A stretch of 34,185 nucleotides of DNA from positions 1-34,185 of the forward strand of contig QWPW01000017.1 in assembly GCA_003671025.1 (NCBI GenBank), in the 5' to 3' direction. Below are positions 21,618 to 32,102 of this stretch, piece by piece; position 1 is the first letter of the stretch, and each line of letters starts with the position of its first letter. The position numbers were made by a program, and so were the translations under genes. The notes beneath the pieces were generated by a model. The model worked only from the letters and a program-made list of their open reading frames with translations. It was not told where the DNA came from and did no database searches. Origin of the DNA: Planctomycetota bacterium. GTDB taxonomy: Bacteria > Planctomycetota > Phycisphaerae > Phycisphaerales > SM1A02.

Positions 21618-23366
21618 GTGATCACCATGCAGATTACCGACCTCATTGTTCCTTCGTCACGCACACGAATTACGCAATCGATGACGCGGTCGATCACCGC
21701 ACTGATCGGTGCGAGCATCGGCTGCTCATGTTTGGTGAGCGGCGCGCACGCGCAACAGTTCGTCGATCAAACCAGCACGCGATTTCCTGTGCAAGCTGAG
21801 TACACCAATCAGTGCACCATCGTCGACATCGACAACGACGGCGACAAAGACATCGTGTGGGCGAACGGGCAGGGATACTCAACGTTGGGCACTCTGCTCA
21901 AGCCGCGCGTGTTCATCAACAACGGCACGGGAACTTTCGCTGATGAAACCGACACGCGTGCGTTGGGCATCACGGGATGCTTTCGCGGAGTCGAAGCTGG
22001 CGATGTTGATCGCGATGGCGACTGGGATCTCATTCTCGCGCAGGACTACAACCGTCGTCCGTTGTTGCTCATCAATGACGGCACGGGCAAGTTCACTGAC
22101 GCCACAGTCGCCCGACTTCCCAACGTCACCATGGGTTCGGCGCGCGCGCAGTTTGGCGACATCGACAACGACGGCGATCTCGACATTCTGATTTGCAATT
22201 CGGGAGCGAATCGTTTTTCCACCACCGGTCGTCCGCGCATCTTCATCAACAACGGCACCGGAGTTTTTGCCGACGCGAGCACGCTGCAGTTTCCTTCCAC
22301 CGCGCTTGCCGAGCAGATGGACTGCGTCTTCGGTGATGTCGACAACGATCTCGATCTCGACTTCCACGTGGGTACGCGCGCGTCTGGCGTGAACTCGAGC
22401 CAACTGTGGATCAACAATGGCGCAGGCACGTTTGCCAAGCTCACCACGTTTGTGACCGACGCCTCCGCGTACTCCTACGACTTTGGCGACATCGAAGGTG
22501 ATGGCGATCTCGATCTCATTGGAGTCAACGCGGGGTCGACCAACACTGAACTCTTGCTGCGCAACAACGGTGCGGGCACCTCGTGGACCGGCGTGAGTAC
22601 GCAGATTTCACCCAACCCTTCGGTGGATGACAACGACTCGCGCTTCATCGATTACGACATGGACGGAGATCTCGATCTCTTCATTGCGGCATTGGGCGCG
22701 GCGGATCGCATGTATCGCAACAACGGCGCGGGAACATTCGCGCAAGTGACCGGCGTCTTGCCTACCGCGAGCGACAGTTCGCTCGATGTGAAAGTGGGCG
22801 ACCTCACCGGCGACGGCAAGCCTGACATCATCACCGCGCAAGGCGAATCAGGCGCGTTTCAGAATCGCATCTACATCAACACTGGTGTCGCGGACACCAT
22901 CGCGCCCAACATCAAACTCGTTGAGCAAGTGACTCCAGCGGGAGTTGGTCCGTTCGTGGTGCGCACCGAAGTGTTTGATCAGATCACCAGTGATCGCGGT
23001 TACGACGACAACGGCGTCATGCTTCTTTACTCCATCGATGGCGCGAAACCCGTGAGCGTGCCTATGGCGTGGTCGGGCAATAGCCTGTGGCGCGGCGTGA
23101 TTCCAGCGCAAGCAGTGTGCGCGGAAGTGAGCTACTTCGTGCGTGCATTGGATGTCTCCAACAACATCTCGAACAGTCCGACGAAATTCTTCACCGTGCC
23201 AGGAACATGTGGTCCGATCGGTGACCTCAACGGCGACGGACGTGTCGATGGCGCGGATCTCGCCACGTTGCTCAACTCGTGGGGCAGCGGTGGACCTGCG
23301 GATCTCAACGGCGACACCGTTGTTGACGCCAGCGATATGGCGATTCTGCTCAACAATTTTGGTTGA
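21618..23366 (+). CDS. Secreted FG-GAP/VCBS repeat protein with dockerin-like end
   Basis: 582 residues. The signal peptide runs to about residue 45 (SITALIGASIGCSCLVSGAHA, then QQ). A shorter start at 21681 (Met22) would give a more usual signal length. Seven calcium-binding FG-GAP-type motifs follow, such as VDIDNDGDKDIV, GDVDRDGDWDLI, GDIDNDGDLDIL, IDYDMDGDLDLF and GDLTGDGKPDII, separated by repeats of INNGTGxF. This implies a beta-propeller on the outside of the cell. After an Ig-like stretch (about 430-530), the last 48 residues contain two EF-hand loops (DLNGDGRVDGADL and DLNGDTVVDASDM), a dockerin-like pair. The ligand is unknown. Confidence 0.87.
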   Translation: MITMQITDLIVPSSRTRITQSMTRSITALIGASIGCSCLVSGAHAQQFVDQTSTRFPVQAEYTNQCTIVDIDNDGDKDIVWANGQGYSTLGTLLKPRVFINNGTGTFADETDTRALGITGCFRGVEAGDVDRDGDWDLILAQDYNRRPLLLINDGTGKFTDATVARLPNVTMGSARAQFGDIDNDGDLDILICNSGANRFSTTGRPRIFINNGTGVFADASTLQFPSTALAEQMDCVFGDVDNDLDLDFHVGTRASGVNSSQLWINNGAGTFAKLTTFVTDASAYSYDFGDIEGDGDLDLIGVNAGSTNTELLLRNNGAGTSWTGVSTQISPNPSVDDNDSRFIDYDMDGDLDLFIAALGAADRMYRNNGAGTFAQVTGVLPTASDSSLDVKVGDLTGDGKPDIITAQGESGAFQNRIYINTGVADTIAPNIKLVEQVTPAGVGPFVVRTEVFDQITSDRGYDDNGVMLLYSIDGAKPVSVPMAWSGNSLWRGVIPAQAVCAEVSYFVRALDVSNNISNSPTKFFTVPGTCGPIGDLNGDGRVDGADLATLLNSWGSGGPADLNGDTVVDASDMAILLNNFG

Positions 23367-23474: not shown

Positions 23475-24275
23475 GTGAGCAACGACAACCCATTTTCACT
23501 TCACGACAAGACCGCAGTTGTGTGCGGCGCGACGCAAGGCATCGGCCGCGCGGCCGCGCTCGAGTTCGCGCGTTCAGGCGCACGCGTGGTCATCGTGGGT
23601 CGCAATCCCGATGGCCTGAGCAAAGTTCTAGCGGAGTTGCAAGCGATTTCCGCGCAAGCGCATCTCAGTGTGTGTTGCGACTTCGCCGATCTTGATGCGA
23701 CCGAATCAATCGCGCACGCAACGGTGAGCACACTCGGCGCCGTGCACATTCTGGTTAACAACACGGGCGGACCCGCGGCAGGCAGCGCGATCGAAGCGAA
23801 GCCGCGCGACTTTCTCGCGGCGATGTCGATGCACCTCGGTTGCGCGCAAGCGTGGACGCAAGCGTGCGCTCCATCGATGCGCGCTGAGGGATACGGCCGC
23901 ATCATCAACGTCACGAGCACTTCGGTGTTTACGCCGATCAAAGGCTTGGGCGTTTCCAACACGGTGCGCGCCGCGATGGCGAATTGGTCGAAGACGCTTG
24001 CGAGTGAACTCGGTCGCTTTGGCATCACGGTGAACAACGTCATGCCCGGCTTCACCAAGACTGCGCGACTCGATGCGCTGTTCAAAGGCAAGGCCACGCG
24101 CGGTGGCATGAGCATCGATGAAGTCGAGCGCGATGCGATCGCGACCATTCCTGCCGCGCGATTAGGTGACCCGCGTGAATTGGCGTTGGCGATGGTGTTT
24201 CTCGCCTCACCAGCTGCGAGCTATGTGAACGGTGTCAACTTTCCTGTCGACGGTGGTCGCCTCGCGGCGCAATGA
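23475..24275 (+). CDS. SDR-family protein with non-canonical active site
   Basis: 266 residues starting at GTG. It is a Rossmann-fold short-chain dehydrogenase/reductase with the nucleotide loop GATQGIG (18-24), VNNTGGP (95-100), INVTS (145-149) and the late motif NNVMPGFTKT; the end (YVNGVNFPVDGG) is also typical. The usual catalytic YxxxK is replaced: where it should be, the sequence reads GVSNTVRAAM (159-168), with Ser161 in the Tyr position and Arg165 in the Lys position. I remember a subgroup with SNxxRxA at this site, so this is probably a real subfamily rather than an error. Its stop overlaps the aldehyde dehydrogenase start (ATGA), so it belongs to the kynurenine cluster, but its reaction is unknown. 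Confidence 0.85.
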   Translation: MSNDNPFSLHDKTAVVCGATQGIGRAAALEFARSGARVVIVGRNPDGLSKVLAELQAISAQAHLSVCCDFADLDATESIAHATVSTLGAVHILVNNTGGPAAGSAIEAKPRDFLAAMSMHLGCAQAWTQACAPSMRAEGYGRIINVTSTSVFTPIKGLGVSNTVRAAMANWSKTLASELGRFGITVNNVMPGFTKTARLDALFKGKATRGGMSIDEVERDAIATIPAARLGDPRELALAMVFLASPAASYVNGVNFPVDGGRLAAQ

Positions 24276-25756
24276 AAGTTCAGTCGAGTCTTATGCGCGA
24301 AGTCGATCATTTCATCAACGGCGCGTTTGTTCCCGCGGCTTCGGGTGCGCGACTGACGCGCGAAAATCCTGCGACGGGCCAGCCACTGCGGCTCATCGCG
24401 CGCGGCGACAGTGTTGATGTCGCGCAGGCAGCCGACGCGGCGCGGCGTGCGTTTGAAGTGTGGGGCAAGACTCCTGCGAGTGAACGCTCGAGCATCTTGC
24501 TCGCGATTGCGGCGGGTATCGACGCGCGTCTTGATGAACTCGCGCAACTCGAATGCGAAGACACGGGCAAGCCGCTTTCACTCGCGCGATCGTTGGATAT
24601 TCCTCGCGCCGCAGCCAACTTTCGCTTCTACGCCACCGCGATCTTGCATGAGTCATCCGAGTCGTTCCTCACCGAACGTCCCGCGCGCGCGATCAACTAC
24701 GTGCTGCGCAAACCGCTGGGCACAGTCGCGTGCATCTCGCCGTGGAATCTTCCGCTGTATTTGTTCACCTGGAAGATTGCACCCGCACTCGCCGCGGGCA
24801 ACTGCGTCATCGCGAAACCAAGTGAACTGACACCGACCACTGCGACAGTGCTGTGCGATATCGCGCGTAACGCAGGATTGCCCGCGGGCGTGCTCAATGT
24901 GATTCATGGTTTAGGCGCGGAGGCCGGGCAAGCGATCGTCGATTGTCCGAGTGTGCGCGCAGTGACTTTCACCGGCGGCACGGCGACAGGACGACGACTG
25001 GCGGCGCGTTGCGGTGAACGGTTGATTCCGGTGTCGCTCGAACTCGGTGGCAAGAACGCCGCCATCGTGTGCGCCGACGCGGACCTCGCGGTGGCTGTGC
25101 CCGAGATTGCGCGCAGTGCGTTTCTCAATCAAGGCGAGATCTGTTTGTGCTCGTCGCGCATTCTTGTGCATCGCTCGCGCATGAAGGAATTCACTGAGCG
25201 CTTCATTGATGCGACGCGATCGTTGCGTATCGGAGATCCACTCGCGCCTGAGAGCGATCTTGGCGCGTTGATTTCTAAAGCGCATCGCGAGAAGGTGATG
25301 GCTGCGATTGAACGCGGCGTGGCTGATGGTGGTGTGATTGCTACCGGTGGCGAGATTCCGCGAGGACTTCCACCGCGTGTCGCCGACGGCGCGTTTCTGC
25401 AGCCGACCGTGTTGCTCGGCGTGCCTCACACGAGTGCGTGCGTGCAAGAAGAAACCTTCGGCCCCGTCGTGACCATCCACGGATTCGATGCACATCGCGA
25501 TGCGGTCACCATGACGAACGGCACGCGCTATGGACTCGCGGCAAGTGTGTGGACGCGTGATCTCTCGCGCGCGCATCGCTTCGCTGCACGCATCGATGCG
25601 GGCACGGTGTGGGTCAACTGTTGGATGATGCGCGATCTGCGCGTGCCCTTTGGTGGCGTAAAAGATTCGGGCATCGGTCGCGAGGGTGGAAACGAAGCAC
25701 TGCGATTCTTGAGCGATGTCTCCAACGTGTGTATCCACATGGGAGAAGCACTGTGA
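24272..25756 (+). CDS. 2-aminomuconate 6-semialdehyde dehydrogenase (ALDH8A1-like)
   Basis: 494 residues. It probably oxidises 2-aminomuconate semialdehyde to 2-aminomuconate with NAD+. All ALDH elements are present: Asn159 in SPWNLPLY, Lys182 in AKPSELTP, the FTGGTATG loop (233-240), Glu257 in LELGGKN and the nucleophile Cys291 in NQGEICLCSSRI. The stretch around the nucleophile and GALISKAHREKV closely resemble ALDH8A1 and bacterial 2-hydroxy/2-aminomuconic semialdehyde dehydrogenases (AmnC/NbaE). The ACMSD, RidA-type deaminase, KMO and kynureninase nearby support the aminomuconate role over hydroxymuconate. It overlaps sdr by 4 bases and the acetyltransferase by 4 bases. Confidence 0.92.
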   Translation: MKVQSSLMREVDHFINGAFVPAASGARLTRENPATGQPLRLIARGDSVDVAQAADAARRAFEVWGKTPASERSSILLAIAAGIDARLDELAQLECEDTGKPLSLARSLDIPRAAANFRFYATAILHESSESFLTERPARAINYVLRKPLGTVACISPWNLPLYLFTWKIAPALAAGNCVIAKPSELTPTTATVLCDIARNAGLPAGVLNVIHGLGAEAGQAIVDCPSVRAVTFTGGTATGRRLAARCGERLIPVSLELGGKNAAIVCADADLAVAVPEIARSAFLNQGEICLCSSRILVHRSRMKEFTERFIDATRSLRIGDPLAPESDLGALISKAHREKVMAAIERGVADGGVIATGGEIPRGLPPRVADGAFLQPTVLLGVPHTSACVQEETFGPVVTIHGFDAHRDAVTMTNGTRYGLAASVWTRDLSRAHRFAARIDAGTVWVNCWMMRDLRVPFGGVKDSGIGREGGNEALRFLSDVSNVCIHMGEAL

Positions 25757-26268
25757 GTGCATACGCCAGCGCCGAGGTGATCATTCGCGACGCGACTGAG
25801 GCGGATCTCCAATCCATTCTCGCGATCTACAACCAATCGATTCCCAAGCGCATCGCCACTGCGGATCTCGAACCGCAATCACTCGCCACTCGCCGCGCGT
25901 GGTTCATGAATCGCGATCGTGCGACGCGGCCGGTTCTCGTCGCTGAACTTGCTGGCCGCGTGGTCGCGTGGGGCAGTTACACGAACTTCAAAGATCGAGC
26001 CGCCTACGCGCCGACTGCGGAAATCTCGGTGTATGTCGCGGATGAGTGCGTGGGTCGCGGTGTTGGTCGCGCGATGTTGGATGCGTTGCTTGCGCGCGCA
26101 ACGAGTTGCGGCATCGATCGCATCCTCGCGATTTGCTTCGCGCACAACGAGCCGAGTTTGCGACTCTTTCGCGCGCGTGGCTTTACCGAGTGGGGCACGC
26201 TGCCCGATGCATGTGTCATGGATGATGTGCGCAGAAGCGTGGTGATTCTCGGCAAGTCGATGTCGTGA
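25753..26268 (+). CDS. GNAT N-acetyltransferase, phosphinothricin/MnaT-like
   Basis: 171 residues from a GTG that overlaps the aldehyde dehydrogenase stop (GTGA at 25753-25756). The sequence begins IIRDATEADLQSILAIYNQ and has RPVLVAELAGRVVAWGSY, TAEISVYV, the acetyl-CoA loop CVGRGVGRAML, FAHNEPSLRLFRARGF and VVILGK at the end, the pattern of phosphinothricin/methionine sulfoximine acetyltransferases. These acetylate the amino group of small amino-acid-like compounds. In this setting an amino intermediate or shunt product of tryptophan breakdown is a possible substrate, but that is inference. The frame is open further upstream inside the dehydrogenase gene; I reject that extension because the conserved domain starts just after the GTG. 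Confidence 0.88.
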   Translation: MSAYASAEVIIRDATEADLQSILAIYNQSIPKRIATADLEPQSLATRRAWFMNRDRATRPVLVAELAGRVVAWGSYTNFKDRAAYAPTAEISVYVADECVGRGVGRAMLDALLARATSCGIDRILAICFAHNEPSLRLFRARGFTEWGTLPDACVMDDVRRSVVILGKSMS

Positions 26269-26312
26269 AGTCATCATCGCGATGAACGCGCGCCGACATC
26301 TCTGCGCAACGA

Positions 26313-26750
26313 TCACTCATCAATGCGCGCGATGGCCTTCACTTCAACAGCGATCGGCGTAGGCAAGCAATCGATGCCCAAGGTTGTGCGCGTGGGATTG
26401 GGGTTTCCTGGCCCTGCGAAGTATTCGGCGTAGATGCGGTTGTAGATGGGAAAGTCGTTGGCCATGTCGGTGAGAAACACCGTCACGTCAATGAGGTTGA
26501 TCCACGGAACACCCGCGTCTTCCATGACCGCTTTGGTGTTGTCAAAGCACGAGCGACATTGCGCTTCGATGTCTTTGCCCGCGAGTCGTCCATCGGGCGA
26601 AAGCGTGACGCCGGGGATCTCTTTCGATCCACGCTTGCGCGGACCAATGCCCGAGAGAAACAGCAGATTTCCCGCGCGTTTCGCATGGGGATACGCGCCA
26701 ACAGGTTCGGGCGCGCGGCTCGACACTACCTCGTCACTGCGATTGGTCAT
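26313..26750 (-). CDS. RidA-family protein, probable 2-aminomuconate deaminase
   Basis: 145 residues. The RidA/YjgF/UK114 fold is recognisable from PVGAYPHAKRAGNLLFLSGIG, the FDNTKAVMEDAG helix, DVTVFLTDM and the active-site region NPTRTTLGIDCLP with Arg121 and Glu136 (in AVEVKAIA). It is longer than RidA (about 128) and matches the size and insert (RKRGSKEIPGV) of bacterial 2-aminomuconate deaminase (AmnD/NbaF), which releases ammonia to give 4-oxalocrotonate. The cluster context agrees. The ATG overlaps the end of kynB by 17 bases, so it is translated as the last gene of the kmo unit. The same frame is open far upstream inside kynB, which I regard as chance. Confidence 0.88.
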   Translation of the reverse strand: MTNRSDEVVSSRAPEPVGAYPHAKRAGNLLFLSGIGPRKRGSKEIPGVTLSPDGRLAGKDIEAQCRSCFDNTKAVMEDAGVPWINLIDVTVFLTDMANDFPIYNRIYAEYFAGPGNPNPTRTTLGIDCLPTPIAVEVKAIARIDE

Positions 26751-27396
26751 GCAAGGAGCGTAGCACGGCACGCACAGGACTCGCATCGAAGCCAACGAGC
26801 GAGAGCGGAAGCGCGATGAGTTCGTATGCGCCTTCCGCAACGTGGGCCAATCGCAGTCCCTCAAGAATCGAGACATCGCGCGCGAGAAAGCGTGCGTGCG
26901 CCATGAGAAGTTTGCACTCCTGCACATCAACGCTGGGCGTGTCAACGCCAATGAGTTCGACGCCGCGATCCGCAAGCGCATCGACCAACGCAGGATCGAG
27001 TCCCGCGAAGTCGCTGTTCCACTGCTCGAAATCAGGAAAGGTTCCAGTGGCGATGAGCACGCGCGGATGATGAATCGCGTTGAGCTGCGTCGCGAGATCC
27101 GCAACACGCACGCGCGCGCCACCGGGCACACGCTTCACGTTGGCGTGAATTACATGACATGGACCGAGGTAGCGCGCGAGTGGCATCGCATCGATGGCGT
27201 TCGCATGCACGCCGTAATGATTGGCGCCGTCGGCGTGTGCGCCCAGATGCACGGTCGCACGCATCGATGAGAGCGTGACTGTCGCGCCGTCTTTGATCTC
27301 GCACAACACTTCACGCGTGAGCGCCGTGTCGCCTGGCCACACATTGATGCTCGGTGTGAGCATCGGTGAGATATCGATGAGTGTGCGCGTCGACAT
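26734..27396 (-). CDS. kynB: Kynurenine formamidase (cyclase family)
   Basis: 220 residues. It hydrolyses N-formylkynurenine to kynurenine and formate. The metal-binding signature HLGAHADGANH (His50, His54, Asp56, His60) corresponds to the HxGTHxDxPxH motif of the cyclase family, with the Ala spacing found in some KynB proteins. ISPMLTPSINVWPGD at the N-terminus, GVDTPSVDVQECKLLMAH, ILEGLRL and YELIALPLSLVGFDASPVRAVLR are typical of KynB rather than other cyclases. It starts two bases after the stop of the zinc-ribbon gene and ends inside the start region of the deaminase gene, so it is in the middle of a tightly coupled operon. Confidence 0.94.
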   Translation of the reverse strand: MSTRTLIDISPMLTPSINVWPGDTALTREVLCEIKDGATVTLSSMRATVHLGAHADGANHYGVHANAIDAMPLARYLGPCHVIHANVKRVPGGARVRVADLATQLNAIHHPRVLIATGTFPDFEQWNSDFAGLDPALVDALADRGVELIGVDTPSVDVQECKLLMAHARFLARDVSILEGLRLAHVAEGAYELIALPLSLVGFDASPVRAVLRSLHDQSQ

Positions 27397-27398
27397 AG

Positions 27399-28193
27399 TC
27401 AGAAGCGATCCTTGGGCGCTGTTTGTTGCAACTCTTCAGCGACGCGATCGCGTGGTTTTCGAGCCAAAATCAAGGGAATTGCGGCGAGGAACGCAACCAC
27501 CAGCGCGATGGCAATGGTCCACCCGACTCCGTACTGAAGCCCAGGACCACCCGTCGATGGACCGAGCAGCCACGCGAATTGATCGAAGAGCGCGCGCGTC
27601 GCATCATCAGGTGTTCGTCCGAGCGTCCACGCATGAACGCCCTGTGCTTGACCGCCGCGCGCAAGCCAACCAATCGCGAGACCACCCTGAGCCAAGGCTC
27701 CGACGGCGAGACCACCGTTGGCCATCAGTCCAACCGAGAATCCGCCGAGACTGCTCCCGAGCAACGCGATCGCGCCACCACCAAAGGCCGCGAAAGTTCC
27801 AATCGAGAGACCGCCGAATGTGACGCCACCAACCGAGATGCCTCCCATCGCCACAACTCCGCGCGCGAGGCCACCGAGCGCGAACACTCCCGTGGCCACG
27901 TCGCCCACCGCGATGTAGCCCTTTGCTCTTCCCATCTTTCCCTCCGCGTCGGGGCCCGTGGCGATGGACAAGAGAGGGAGGCCCAAGACACGCGTGGGCG
28001 ATTCATATCGCCGCGTCATCTTGCTGAAACGTGGTTCGCGCGTGAGCACTTCAACGAGCGGTCGACCACACTCGGGACACACGGCGCTGTGCACTGCTCC
28101 GGTGAGATCGTGACCACACTTCGCGCAAAATGGGCGAGGCAACACGAGGTCTGCCTTGAGTGTTGGCTCGGGCGCTTGATTTTGATTGGTCAT
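27399..28193 (-). CDS. Zinc-ribbon membrane protein with ten-residue GG repeats
   Basis: 264 residues from the ATG ending at 28193, which overlaps the kmo stop (ATGA). A zinc ribbon (CAKCGHDL...CPECGRPL; Cys23, 26, 39, 42) is followed by a spacer. Then, from about 95 to 187, comes a Gly/Ala-rich stretch in which GG occurs at 107, 117, 127, 138, 150, 160, 170 and 180, a period of about ten with the pattern GGLAxGxxAx. One strong membrane helix lies near the end (about 224-244), with a basic tail. The repeat might form a beta-solenoid or a membrane-packed glycine-zipper structure. No enzyme motif is visible and I recognise no characterised family. Its place between kmo and kynB, with no spare bases, argues for a role linked to kynurenine oxidation, but that role is unknown. 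Confidence 0.8.
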   Translation of the reverse strand: MTNQNQAPEPTLKADLVLPRPFCAKCGHDLTGAVHSAVCPECGRPLVEVLTREPRFSKMTRRYESPTRVLGLPLLSIATGPDAEGKMGRAKGYIAVGDVATGVFALGGLARGVVAMGGISVGGVTFGGLSIGTFAAFGGGAIALLGSSLGGFSVGLMANGGLAVGALAQGGLAIGWLARGGQAQGVHAWTLGRTPDDATRALFDQFAWLLGPSTGGPGLQYGVGWTIAIALVVAFLAAIPLILARKPRDRVAEELQQTAPKDRF

Positions 28194-29641
28194 CGTGGGC
28201 TTCGTGACGTGCCGACCGAAGCGGCGACACGCTGTGCGATGACCAGAACCAAGAACACGAACAACGCACTCAGCGAATACTTCTGATGATTGAACTCGGC
28301 CCATTGCGCCAAGCTAAAAACAATCAGCGCAACTAACACGAGAACGACGCAGTACATCAGTCTCTTGATGAGAAGATCGTTGCGCAGTCCGCGCGCTTTC
28401 GCCTCTGCGTATGGCACCGTGGAAAAACTAACGAGGTCGTACAGAGGCACGAAGGTCTTGGGGAACAACACGTGCAGTGTGTGTTCGAGCTTCTTTTTCC
28501 AGCGAAAACTGCGGCGTCCAGTGAGATCGCGCATTTCGATGAAGTTGCGCAGCGCCATGTCGGCAATCGCGTTGCTGTTGTCGATGCGTGCGAGTTCGTA
28601 CGCGCGCAATGCGCCGCTCACCGTCGCTTCTTGCGTGAGTGCGTCGGCGAGCGCTTCGCAATCTTCGAAGCTCGCGTTCGCGCCTTGACCGTAGAACGGA
28701 ACCACCGCGTGCGCCGCATCACCTAGGAGTATCACGTTGTTGCGCGTCCATGGCGCGCAGCGCACCGTCACCATCGAACCAACGGGATTGCGCACAAAGT
28801 CCGCGGCCAATGTCGGCATCAGTGCCAACGCATCGGGATAGACCGCGCGAAAGTGCGCGAGCGCTTCATCGGCGGTGCGAATCGAAGCGAAGCTCGCACC
28901 ACCATCGGACGCAGTGTGCGGCCAGAACAGCGTGCACGTGAACGAGCCATCAGGATTGGGTAGCGCGATCATCATCGATGCGCCGCGCGGCCAGATGTGC
29001 AGGGCTTGCGGCTCCATCGCAAAGGGAGCGTGTGGACCAACGGCGACGGCGGGGATGTGCAGTTCTTTGTAGCCGTGCGTGAGAAACGCCTGCGAGTAAT
29101 CGAATCCCTCAAAGCGTTGCATCGCCGCGCGCACCGCGGAAAACGCGCCGTCCGCACCAACGATGAGATCAGCGGAAATCGTGCGCGTCTCGCCAGTGCG
29201 GTCGTTGATGAAGGTTGCTTCGCGCTTATCGAAGTCGATGGTGGTGGATCGTTGATCGAAGGCGACGCGCACATTCGCTTCTGCCGCGGCCGCGTCGAGT
29301 AGTCCCAGATTGAGCACGCTCCGTGACACCGAGTTGATCGCGCGCGTGGGATCGCTCGAGTAAGGCTGGAATCCACCGCTGCCCGCGACGAGATGAATCA
29401 TCCGCCCGCCCATGCGGATCGCATCCTTCATGATCACGTCAGTCAAACCCGCGCGCGTGAGTGCCTTGATGCCTCGGGCGCTGATGGCAAGATTGATGGA
29501 ACGCCCTGCAGCAAAGCGTTTTTCGCGCGGATCACTACGGCGCTCGACGAGTTCGACACTCCATCCCGCGCGAGCGAGATACACGGCGAGAAGACTTCCT
29601 GCGAGTCCCGCTCCGACGATGAGCACACGCGATGGCTGCAT
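28190..29641 (-). CDS. kmo: Kynurenine 3-monooxygenase with C-terminal membrane hairpin
   Basis: About 483 residues from the ATG ending at 29641. It is an FAD/NADPH hydroxylase that makes 3-hydroxykynurenine. GAGLAG (10-15) is the FAD dinucleotide motif, followed by the KMO signature GRSINLAISARG (around 46-57), GADGAF (DG motif, about 162-167) and GDAAHAVVPFYGQGANASFEDC (GD motif, about 307-328). FRWKKKLEH and the later segment also fit KMO. The end contains two hydrophobic helices, about 428-447 and 456-473, predicting membrane attachment as in eukaryotic KMO; the well-studied Pseudomonas enzyme is soluble. The start is chosen because TACGAT lies seven bases upstream. In-frame ATGs ending at 29650, 29674 and 29731 are alternatives. 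It diverges from kynU. Confidence 0.93.
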   Translation of the reverse strand: MQPSRVLIVGAGLAGSLLAVYLARAGWSVELVERRSDPREKRFAAGRSINLAISARGIKALTRAGLTDVIMKDAIRMGGRMIHLVAGSGGFQPYSSDPTRAINSVSRSVLNLGLLDAAAAEANVRVAFDQRSTTIDFDKREATFINDRTGETRTISADLIVGADGAFSAVRAAMQRFEGFDYSQAFLTHGYKELHIPAVAVGPHAPFAMEPQALHIWPRGASMMIALPNPDGSFTCTLFWPHTASDGGASFASIRTADEALAHFRAVYPDALALMPTLAADFVRNPVGSMVTVRCAPWTRNNVILLGDAAHAVVPFYGQGANASFEDCEALADALTQEATVSGALRAYELARIDNSNAIADMALRNFIEMRDLTGRRSFRWKKKLEHTLHVLFPKTFVPLYDLVSFSTVPYAEAKARGLRNDLLIKRLMYCVVLVLVALIVFSLAQWAEFNHQKYSLSALFVFLVLVIAQRVAASVGTSRSPR

Positions 29642-29648
29642 GCGTCGC

Positions 29649-29654
29649 ATCGTA
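29649..29654 (-). promoter_or_regulatory. Possible -10 element (TACGAT), leaderless kmo
   Basis: On the minus strand TACGAT ends 7 bases before the ATG ending at 29641. It would initiate the kmo-zinc ribbon-kynB-ridA transcript. Confidence 0.42.
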
Positions 29655-29677
29655 CTGATCTCGTTTACCTGCATGAC

Positions 29678-29695
29678 TGCGAGGATGTGTTCGCA
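29678..29695. promoter_or_regulatory. Dyad in the kmo/kynU divergent promoter region
   Basis: TGCGA (29678-29682) and TCGCA (29691-29695) form an inverted repeat with an 8-base spacer in the roughly 130-base gap between two divergent kynurenine genes. This is the right place for an operator serving both directions. Five-base arms are short, and no regulator gene is nearby. Confidence 0.25.
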
Positions 29696-29762
29696 TTGAT
29701 GAGATCCCAGTCGCGCTGCGCTTGATGGCACACTCGTTGCCGCGTCGGCACTGGCTGCGCGC

Positions 29763-29768
29763 TAATCT
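29763..29768 (+). promoter_or_regulatory. Possible -10 element (TAATCT), leaderless kynU
   Basis: TAATCT ends 6 bases before the kynU ATG at 29775. A TTGCCG at 29737-29742 is the only -35-like sequence and is spaced 20 bases away, longer than usual. Confidence 0.45.
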
Positions 29769-29774
29769 GCACCA

Positions 29775-31052
29775 ATGCCCACGCTGACCGCGGCCGATCT
29801 CTCGCATGAGCGCGCTTTCGCACAAACCCTCGATGCACAAGATGTATTGAGCCCATTTCGCACGCGATTCGCGTTGCCCGTGGAGCGACCGAGCGACATT
29901 TACTTCGTGGGCAACTCATTGGGGCCGATGCCCTGCGCGACTCGCGCGTTGGTGAATGAGGAGCTCGATGATTGGATGCGATTGGGTGTGCACGCTCATC
30001 ACGACTCGCGTCGGCCGTGGGTGAGTTACCACGAGCAACTGCGCGGGCCATTGGCTCGATTGGTGGGCGCGCGTGAGTGCGAAGTGGTCGCGATGAATTC
30101 ACTCAGCGCGAATCTGCACTTCTTGATGACGACGTTCTATCGACCTGCGGGAAAGCGCAGCAAACTGCTGATCGAGAAGGACGCGTTTCCCAGCGACACT
30201 TACGCGGTGATGAGTCACGTCGCGGCGCGCGGACTTGATGCCACGCACGAAGTGATCGAACTTGCGCCGCGCGCAGGTGAATGGACGCTGCGCGAGGAAG
30301 ACATCGAAGCCACCATCGCGCAACTCGGTGACACGCTCGCGCTCGCGCTGCTGCCTGGCGTGCAATACCGCACTGGGCAAGCGTTTGACATCACGCGATT
30401 GACCCGCGCGGTGCACGCAGTGGGCGCGCGGTGCGGCTGGGATCTCGCGCATGCCGCAGGAAATCTCGAGCTTTCGTTGCACGAGAGCAACGCAGACTTC
30501 GCGGCGTGGTGTTCGTACAAATATCTCAACGCTGGTCCGGGCGCGGTCGCGGGCGTGTTCATTCATGAGCGCAACGTGAATGATCTTGCGTTGCCGCGAC
30601 ACGCGGGTTGGTGGGGCAACGATCCTGCGACGCGCTTTCGCATGAGCAATCGGTTTGTGCCCACCGCGCATGCGGATGCGTGGAGCGTTTCCAATCCGCC
30701 CATCCTCGCCTTGGCGCCGCTCATCGCGAGTCTCGCGGAGTTTGACGCCGCGGGCATCAGCAATCTTCGAGCCAAGAGCGTGAAACTGACCGCGTTGTTT
30801 GAGTTTCTTCTGCGCTCGATTCCTGGTGTAGAGATTCTGACTCCCAGCTCCAGTGCCGCGCGAGGTTGTCAACTTTCGCTGTACTTCGCAGATCGCGCGC
30901 GCGCGCATTACGACTCGTTCATTGCCGCGGGTCTGTCGGGCGACTATCGCGAGCCGGGCATCGTTCGCTTTGCTCCGACTCCGCTGTACAACACATTTGA
31001 TGAAGTGTGGCGCGCTGCTGAAATCGTGCGAAAGTCGATGGCGAGTTTGTAG
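29775..31052 (+). CDS. kynU: Kynureninase
   Basis: 425 residues, the normal length. It is a PLP enzyme that cleaves 3-hydroxykynurenine (or kynurenine) to 3-hydroxyanthranilate (or anthranilate) and alanine. Motifs: IYFVGNSLGPMP near the N-terminus, PWVSYHEQL, the MNSLSANLHFLM segment, KDAFPSDTYAV, GVQYRTGQAFDI, GWDLAHAAGN with Asp223 that pairs with the PLP nitrogen, and the Schiff-base lysine in WCSYKYLNAGPG (Lys249). HAGWWGNDPATRFRM and the late GIVRFAPTPLYNTFDEV also match. Co-location with a monooxygenase (kmo) suggests 3-hydroxykynurenine as the substrate. It is divergent from kmo and faces the decarboxylase gene with a 15-base gap between stops. Confidence 0.96.
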   Translation: MPTLTAADLSHERAFAQTLDAQDVLSPFRTRFALPVERPSDIYFVGNSLGPMPCATRALVNEELDDWMRLGVHAHHDSRRPWVSYHEQLRGPLARLVGARECEVVAMNSLSANLHFLMTTFYRPAGKRSKLLIEKDAFPSDTYAVMSHVAARGLDATHEVIELAPRAGEWTLREEDIEATIAQLGDTLALALLPGVQYRTGQAFDITRLTRAVHAVGARCGWDLAHAAGNLELSLHESNADFAAWCSYKYLNAGPGAVAGVFIHERNVNDLALPRHAGWWGNDPATRFRMSNRFVPTAHADAWSVSNPPILALAPLIASLAEFDAAGISNLRAKSVKLTALFEFLLRSIPGVEILTPSSSAARGCQLSLYFADRARAHYDSFIAAGLSGDYREPGIVRFAPTPLYNTFDEVWRAAEIVRKSMASL

Positions 31053-31067
31053 TTCGCGCCCACCACT

Positions 31068-32102
31068 TCAGAGGCCGAGAAACTCTTCGGCGGTTCCCGC
31101 GAGCATGCGTGCGCGCGCAACTTCATCGATGTCGCGCATCGATCGCACCAAAGTGCCAGGCACACGTTCACCTAATGGAAACGGGTAGTCGCTGCCCAAC
31201 GCCAAGCGATGCGCGCCCACGGCGTCAATCAGAAATCGCAGCGCCGCTTCGTCATGCACCAGCGTGTCGAAATAGAACTGCGCCATTTGTGCGCGCGGAT
31301 TGACATCGCAATCGACCGCGCACAAATCTGGTCGTTCGCGAAACCCATGCTCGATGCGACCGATGGTGAAGGCAAGACTTCCGCCCCCATGTGCAAGACA
31401 CACTTTGAGTTTCGGCAGCCGTCTCAGCACTCCGCCAAACATCAGCGAACACGCGGCGCGCGTTGTTTCTGCAGGCATTCCCACGAGCCATGGCATCCAA
31501 AACTTTGGCGTGGATGATTGACCGAGCATGTTCCACGGATGAACAAACACAGCGGCGCCACGCTCGGCTGCGTGTTTGAAAAACGGAAACAACTCAGGCG
31601 CATCGAGGTTCCACTCACCACCCATGGTGTTGATGTTCGAACCGATCTCCACACCGCGCATGCCCAGCGTGTCCATGCATCGATCAAGTTCGCGGCACGC
31701 CATTTCGGGGTCTTGCATGGGCACGGTGCCAAGACCAGCAAATCGCGTGGGATGCGCGCGTGTGACTTCGCCGATGTGATCGTTGAGGTGACGTCCCAAC
31801 TCCAGCGCCGCGCTTGCAGGTTGGTGATAGGAAAACATCACGGGCACAGTCGACAGCACTTGCATGGAAACGCCATGGGCATCGCATTCATCGATGCGGA
31901 CTTTCGGATCAAAGCAGTTGGCCTCGATGTCGCGGAAGGGTCGTCCATCTATCGAGAGGCGCGCGCAGGCACAGCCCGAGGTCGATCCGCAGTCGCCCGC
32001 ACCGAAGTGAGTAATCGCGGGCCATCCGTTAGTTTGCGCCTTTTCCGCAAGATCGGGCCACGACGGCGGGAGGATGTGGGTGTGTAAATCGATAGTGCGC
32101 AT
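31068..32102 (-). CDS. acmsd: 2-amino-3-carboxymuconate 6-semialdehyde decarboxylase
   Basis: 344 residues, an amidohydrolase-fold metal-dependent decarboxylase that removes CO2 from aminocarboxymuconate semialdehyde and thereby diverts it from spontaneous closure to quinolinate. Metal ligands fit ACMSD: His7 and His9 (DLHTH), His188 in FVHPWNM, His238 in LAHGGGS and Asp305 in GSDYPFPLGE. The segments GRIEHGFRERPDLC and FDTLVHDEAALRFLID are family-specific. GAGGA lies 10 bases before the ATG and may serve as a ribosome site. It is transcribed towards kynU and away from kup, so it needs its own promoter. Its presence indicates a degradative pathway rather than NAD synthesis. Confidence 0.94.
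   Translation of the reverse strand: MRTIDLHTHILPPSWPDLAEKAQTNGWPAITHFGAGDCGSTSGCACARLSIDGRPFRDIEANCFDPKVRIDECDAHGVSMQVLSTVPVMFSYHQPASAALELGRHLNDHIGEVTRAHPTRFAGLGTVPMQDPEMACRELDRCMDTLGMRGVEIGSNINTMGGEWNLDAPELFPFFKHAAERGAAVFVHPWNMLGQSSTPKFWMPWLVGMPAETTRAACSLMFGGVLRRLPKLKVCLAHGGGSLAFTIGRIEHGFRERPDLCAVDCDVNPRAQMAQFYFDTLVHDEAALRFLIDAVGAHRLALGSDYPFPLGERVPGTLVRSMRDIDEVARARMLAGTAEEFLGL

Follow-up and report, generated by a model that had tools for sequence, protein, structure and literature searches.

A gene for a 264-residue membrane protein, here called ZnGG, lies between the kmo and kynB genes of a kynurenine (kyn) operon in a planctomycete of the order Phycisphaerales. It is confirmed as a real gene whose product carries a zinc ribbon, a glycine repeat and a C-terminal membrane helix, and its genomic link with the kyn genes is real but local. 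Our leading, still tentative, reading is that the operon has recruited ZnGG as a membrane-proximal adaptor, which would hold a soluble partner, perhaps KynB. The window (the whole analyzed stretch of DNA, 34,185 nucleotides of contig QWPW01000017.1) places ZnGG among the following features.

24272–25756, plus strand: muconic-semialdehyde-type aldehyde dehydrogenase (TIGR03216, E 1.3e-167, below its cut-off)
26313–26750, minus strand: RidA-family protein, probably 2-aminomuconate deaminase (best PDB match 6izh, E 9.5e-20)
26734–27396, minus strand: kynB, kynurenine formamidase (arylformamidase; PDB match E 5e-49; TIGR03035 below its cut-off)
27399–28193, minus strand: ZnGG gene, zinc-ribbon/glycine-repeat membrane protein, 264 residues (open reading frame; conserved family)
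28190–29731, minus strand: kmo, kynurenine 3-monooxygenase (PDB match E 2e-91; Pfam FAD_binding_3)
28223–28360, minus strand: two C-terminal hydrophobic segments of KMO (coordinates by residue counting)
29775–31052, plus strand: kynU, kynureninase (TIGR01814 above its cut-off)
31068–32102, minus strand: ACMSD, 2-amino-3-carboxymuconate-6-semialdehyde decarboxylase (PDB match E 1.5e-109)

The cluster at 23475–32102, which also holds an SDR gene, reads as tryptophan catabolism via 2-aminomuconate, judging from known pathways; tryptophan dioxygenase is absent among the window proteins scanned. KynB scores 191 against the NCBIfam arylformamidase model TIGR03035 (E 2.3e-56), whose cut-off is 223, and its relatives are described as binuclear zinc enzymes in the excerpted text of PMC4243253. 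For the RidA-family gene, generic Rid proteins stand close behind the 2-aminomuconate deaminase 6izh with similar E values. The true start of kmo probably lies inside the open reading frame, with homology running from about residue 30–35. As the preliminary description had it, the ATG of ZnGG overlaps the kmo stop by four bases (ATGA), and the ZnGG stop stands two bases from the ATG of kynB. A large protein encoded at 21618–23366, by eye of a secreted FG-GAP/dockerin-type repeat kind, adjoins the cluster, and a relative of it also adjoins the kyn cluster at two other loci (L005 and L074).

The ZnGG protein is laid out in three parts, all encoded on the minus strand.

28053–28136, minus strand: zinc ribbon, residues 20–47 (invariant cysteines; sub-threshold Pfam zinc ribbons)
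27630–27983, minus strand: GG repeat domain, residues 71–188 (alignment, periodicity, hydropathy)
27459–27533, minus strand: C-terminal membrane helix, residues ~221–245 (Kyte-Doolittle mean up to 2.78)

This layout defines a family to which ZnGG belongs, unnamed planctomycete-type membrane proteins with an N-terminal ribbon, a five-residue glycine repeat and a C-terminal helix; no publication on a ZnGG-like protein, alone or in a kyn operon, was found among the titles and abstract openings covered. The zinc-ribbon pattern noted at the outset (C23xxC26 and C39xxC42) is present, and its four cysteines are invariant in all 23 homologue rows of the alignment; the Pfam zinc-ribbon matches all fall under their curated cut-offs (best 18.5 bits versus 27.3). 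The repeat domain is entered through a conserved motif, GLPLLSIATGPD, followed by RAKGYIAVGD. The helix near the C terminus is, as also described before, the single clear membrane segment, two windows within the repeat (from residues 103 and 113) barely exceeding 1.6 on the Kyte-Doolittle scale. It is followed by an Arg/Lys-rich tail, with 87 Lys and Arg residues after the helix and 7 before it, summed over the 23 homologues. The dN/dS ratio of ZnGG is 0.09–0.42 and below 1 in all nine pairs compared, values that are approximate given that five of the nine have a dS greater than 1; dN is higher than that of KMO in every pair, so ZnGG evolves faster than the enzyme. An N-terminal C4 ribbon like that of ZnGG (CGYDLxG/CPECG type) recurs in the window genome on at least three further proteins, and the three identified lack the repeat domain.

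The recurrence of GG at ten-residue intervals, on which the preliminary description had remarked, exceeds chance. Within residues 92–188, glycine pairs at lag 10 number 20 versus 7.6 expected (z 6.2) and at lag 5 number 18 versus 8.0 expected (z 4.9; 2000 shuffles per lag). GG starts at residues 107, 117, 122, 127, 138, 139, 150, 160, 170, 180 and 215. The true period is five, arranged in two halves with a phase shift around residues 137–149, and the ten-residue spacing is its alternate-unit form, GG occupying alternate units over most of the length. The unit G-x-[VFLI]-[AST]-x begins with glycine, continues with G/V/L/D, a large hydrophobic residue and Ala/Ser/Thr, and closes with a mostly large residue, giving a hydrophobic, charge-poor, glycine-rich stretch of ~95 residues that no Pfam or NCBIfam model matched in the scans run.

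Side-chain volume carries a strong signal in this stretch. Each half of the repeat gives a power of 9.9 at period 2.5, more than any of 1772 control windows (maximum 6.4; membrane part of Kup 5.3), where the controls are overlapping windows from the other proteins of the window and the period was picked post hoc. At period 3.6 the volume power is 0.5 or less. The beta-like period is less clear in hydropathy, the C-terminal half giving 1.89 at 3.6 versus 0.83 at 2.5. Such periodicity speaks against plain helices and in favor of a turn at each fifth residue, short of proving a fold, and we consider the repeat probably a solenoid at or in the membrane. AlphaFold models of the whole protein and of the repeat alone, built on two-row alignments, reached mean pLDDT values of 42.6 and 38.2, and where these low-confidence models draw secondary structure in the repeat it is helical. 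PDB sequence searches returned MinC (E 0.029, single protein) and a lipoprotein (E 0.56, profile), matches that are non-significant, were not reproduced between searches and were set aside. The C-terminal domain of MinC is a beta-helix. A report on knotted solenoids, considered for a related fold, mentions planctomycetes or zinc nowhere in its excerpted text (PMC13123833).

Pentapeptide repeats (PF00805) offer a comparison, sharing with ZnGG a five-residue unit in which large and small residues each keep a fixed phase; one such protein, HglK, combines membrane regions with the repeats (excerpted text of PMC8145042). By the measure of at least eight contiguous five-residue repeats ZnGG qualifies, with glycine at nine successive positions across residues 92–132 and at eight across 150–185. 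Its consensus and its residues by phase differ from those of PF00805, few of the residues being polar at any phase; no pentapeptide model appears among the ZnGG hits at E 1, nor among the 22 Pfam families listed for 23 ZnGG members at E 0.1. Pentapeptide repeat proteins fold as a right-handed quadrilateral beta-helix; in ZnGG the volume periodicity agrees better with beta structure than with helix, and hydropathy agrees only in part. In the xNxGx (MPTR) repeats of PPE proteins from mycobacteria, as in ZnGG, glycine returns at every fifth residue and the second position before it is a conserved small or polar residue. That residue is Asn in the PPE repeats and Ala/Ser/Thr in ZnGG, and the context of the PPE repeats is unrelated.

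Linkage to the kyn genes was followed through the order, with genes in relatives called by a codon-usage program trained on the window and the kyn loci and with approximate starts. Within the window's family (f1), 151 genomes were searched, and 32 of them yielded 40 places. Twelve weak places were dropped (best E 5.3e-8), mainly zinc-ribbon matches or, in G076, a bare repeat, and the three of these that were read (L032–L034) show no kyn genes. Of the 28 retained hits, 25, spread over 12 genera, adjoin kmo and/or kynB, related genomes being non-independent samples behind that count. Nineteen adjoin both genes, one adjoins kynB alone and five adjoin kmo alone, a contig end cutting the kynB side in each of the five. 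Four of the linked hits are incomplete: G095 is a remnant, contig ends truncate G024 and G014, and part of G106 is masked. The three hits without such linkage are those of G021 and G028, the latter with a match that starts near a contig end, and an additional copy in G020.

Across the order, 34 of 251 genomes searched had a hit. In family f2, five of seven ZnGG genes directly precede kynB, and three of those five also adjoin kmo. The other two are G293, in which 3.3 kb separate the relative from kmo and kynB is on a different contig, and G311, whose genome has neither kmo nor kynB above threshold. Families f5 and f6 contributed nine hits; no kyn genes occur in the stretches fetched around them, and those that could be read have a different architecture. 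A four-base stop/start overlap between ZnGG and kynB is possible at 17 of 26 loci and an overlap of 1 or 4 bases with the kmo stop at 14 of 30, start codons being picked mechanically in both counts. In G303 and G280, ZnGG and kynB stand together with kmo on a separate contig; at three loci a gene of cluster c11 lies between kmo and ZnGG, and the one tested (L062) is tryptophan 2,3-dioxygenase. KynB would be the partner of choice because ZnGG stays with kynB when kmo is elsewhere or a gene intervenes, and the G293 layout counts against a strict tie between the two. The expected enrichment near kmo or kynB thus holds for families f1 and f2, where ZnGG is a recurrent operon member, and fails at the loci fetched outside the order.

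Full-length relatives do exist in other families, one of which (L125) is 57% identical to an f1 member (L018) over ~200 residues. Class and phylum searches covered 298 and 294 genomes, 61 and 23 of them with hits, our own order included. Among 46 new loci from these searches (L125–L170; best matches only, two of them overlapping; flanks extend at most 1.5 kb and in some cases stop at a contig end), none carries a kyn-cluster gene in its flank at E 1e-5, so that for the wider family homologues do sit beside unrelated genes, the outcome named beforehand as speaking against a kynurenine role. Class-level relatives share no common neighbor beyond small clusters. Clusters c7, c9 and c10 we take by eye to be generic (PQQ-repeat-like, GlmS-like and HDOD-like). 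A search of plasmids turned up a single partial match, in Allochromatium (54% over 21% of the query). When 20 genomes were tested for the pathway genes, a kmo match was missing in seven, kynB in six and both in six, single absences being soft because the genomes are drafts. Relatives without kmo or kynB above threshold are thus found in six of the 20, long ones in G311, G462, G402 and G518 and shorter ones in G324 and G377. In two genomes of one genus (G385 and G375; L180 and L181), a shorter relative lies ~11–12 kb from kynB on the same contig, with kmo beside kynB.

ZnGG is also frequently missing where the enzymes are present. A kmo gene occurs in 107 of the 151 f1 genomes (E 1e-60) and ZnGG was found beside kmo or kynB in 25, its absence from the remaining kmo genomes being read from searches that scored limited candidates per genome. 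Twenty-seven kmo loci from genomes without a linked hit were read directly; none has ZnGG beside kmo, and kynB lies within the stretch in 22. At one of the 27 (L058) a separate ribbon-sized match sits past kynB on the opposite strand. In G045, of the window's own genus, kmo runs into kynB with a four-base overlap and without ZnGG between them. In G095 (L030, from position 1477 onward) a leftover zinc ribbon, without repeat or helix, continues in frame into KynB (308 residues); either a deletion fused the two genes or the assembly is faulty here. ZnGG is therefore an accessory, optional insert, since many relatives have the enzymes without it. The grouping of the kyn-linked proteins as a single exclusive clade was rejected (AU p 3.5e-6, 43-row tree). 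A clade of all f1 and f2 members is compatible with the tree test (p 0.22) on a weak backbone, and a single recruitment with some departures and several recruitments both fit.

KMO itself bears the two C-terminal hydrophobic segments that the preliminary description had called a hairpin and had joined with ZnGG into a membrane-bound assembly; mammalian KMO is described as a membrane-embedded mitochondrial enzyme in the excerpted text of PMC7862291. At least one such segment is present at 27 of 30 kmo loci of the ZnGG set and at 34 of 35 kmo loci without ZnGG alongside, some of the latter (class genomes, G280, G021 and G028) holding a ZnGG relative elsewhere. The four KMOs without a segment all come from ZnGG-carrying f2 genomes, one of which has kmo apart from ZnGG; in the ZnGG set of f2, three of four kmo loci lack it. 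Because KMO is anchored with or without ZnGG, the two membrane features are not coupled. A channel or a complex co-anchored with KMO was rejected as a specific claim, since KMO anchors occur regardless of ZnGG.

The repeat domain recurs in other contexts. At six loci in two other families of the order (L112–L117) it follows a HAAS/permease-prefix-like domain, and the gene stands right after a PadR-cluster gene. PadR scored above cut-off in both loci tested; the permease-prefix domain scored above in three of six and below in three, and the HAAS Pfam match fell below cut-off in one. Three protein kinases (L118, cut by a contig end, L188 and L190) end C-terminally in the GG repeat domain. In the excerpted text of PMC11237479, HAAS-PadR pairs are described as coupled to Toastrack, an intracellular platform of beta-helical fold, as well as to pentapeptide repeats, and Toastrack is proposed as a platform for sub-membrane complexes. 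The repeat of the ZnGG family is similarly joined to HAAS-type domains, PadR genes and signaling modules; ZnGG is likened to Toastrack here by context and not by fold or homology. The window protein itself gave no HAAS match, and no PadR partner gene was found for it. Because the repeat occurs with HAAS/PadR and on kinases, in the kind of slot held by Toastrack and pentapeptide repeats in the excerpts of PMC11237479, we read it as a membrane-proximal platform. The scaffold suggested earlier thus survives as the best guess, its original grounds replaced by these domain contexts.

Topology bears on how such a platform might sit. The tails after the last helix are positive both in ZnGG homologues and in the six HAAS relatives (23 Lys and Arg after versus 9 before), so the C terminus should be cytosolic, and the N terminus of the HAAS relatives should be as well, because it needs to meet PadR. 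With both termini cytosolic, the repeat itself would have to cross the membrane, despite its non-helical volume periodicity. This is the argument for a bolder form of the proposal, which strikes us as improbable: the repeat would be an unnamed domain, a hydrophobic beta-solenoid of the pentapeptide type embedded in the inner membrane, and in the kyn operon it would dock KynB beside KMO.

On the adaptor reading, then, a member of a general membrane-platform family would have been recruited beside kynB in the window's order and would be made together with the enzymes. As a dispensable accessory, ZnGG might tether a soluble protein, perhaps KynB, to the membrane in which KMO usually has its anchor. 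Nearly as likely is that ZnGG is a passenger with a general envelope or membrane-stress role independent of kynurenine, which landed in the kyn operon of an ancestor and stays there for steady expression only. The other neighbors of fetched relatives outside the order, some of them in genomes without the pathway, agree with this, as do the PadR/HAAS and kinase contexts, which suggest signaling or envelope biology, and the repeated absence of the insert with kmo-kynB undisturbed. A mere lodger fits less well with the persistence of ZnGG beside kynB or kmo in 12 f1 genera and in f2, through rearrangements, and with the recurrence of its start/stop overlaps.

A regulatory sensor, in which the ribbon would control kyn expression in response to what the repeat and helix sense, either a metabolite or the membrane itself, as a one-protein analogue of HAAS-PadR, appears unlikely. 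It draws on the sensor-module slots that the repeat occupies next to PadR and behind kinases, and on weak, non-significant PDB matches of the ribbon that include RNA-binding and transcription proteins. Against it, ZnGG holds no Pfam DNA-binding domain above cut-off, no PadR-cluster gene occurs among the kyn loci included in neighbor clustering, and ribbons of the same kind stand on the repeat-free proteins of the window genome. The substrate conduit for kynurenine intermediates first proposed is the least plausible reading, and very improbable. Nothing was found in its favor as a specific role beyond the hydrophobic, charge-poor character of the glycine-rich stretch; it is opposed by relatives in genomes without pathway genes above threshold, the non-helical volume periodicity, the fusion of the repeat domain to kinases and the cytosolic location of the KynB and KMO substrates.

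The repeat domain of ZnGG, unmatched by any Pfam or NCBIfam model in the scans run, is spread across the phylum in zinc-ribbon proteins, beside PadR genes and on protein kinases, and the kyn operon offers a testable setting with known enzymes for it. If ZnGG docks KynB at the membrane, it would be a bacterial accessory of tryptophan catabolism; if it does not, it would be an example of a general membrane protein lodging in a metabolic operon.
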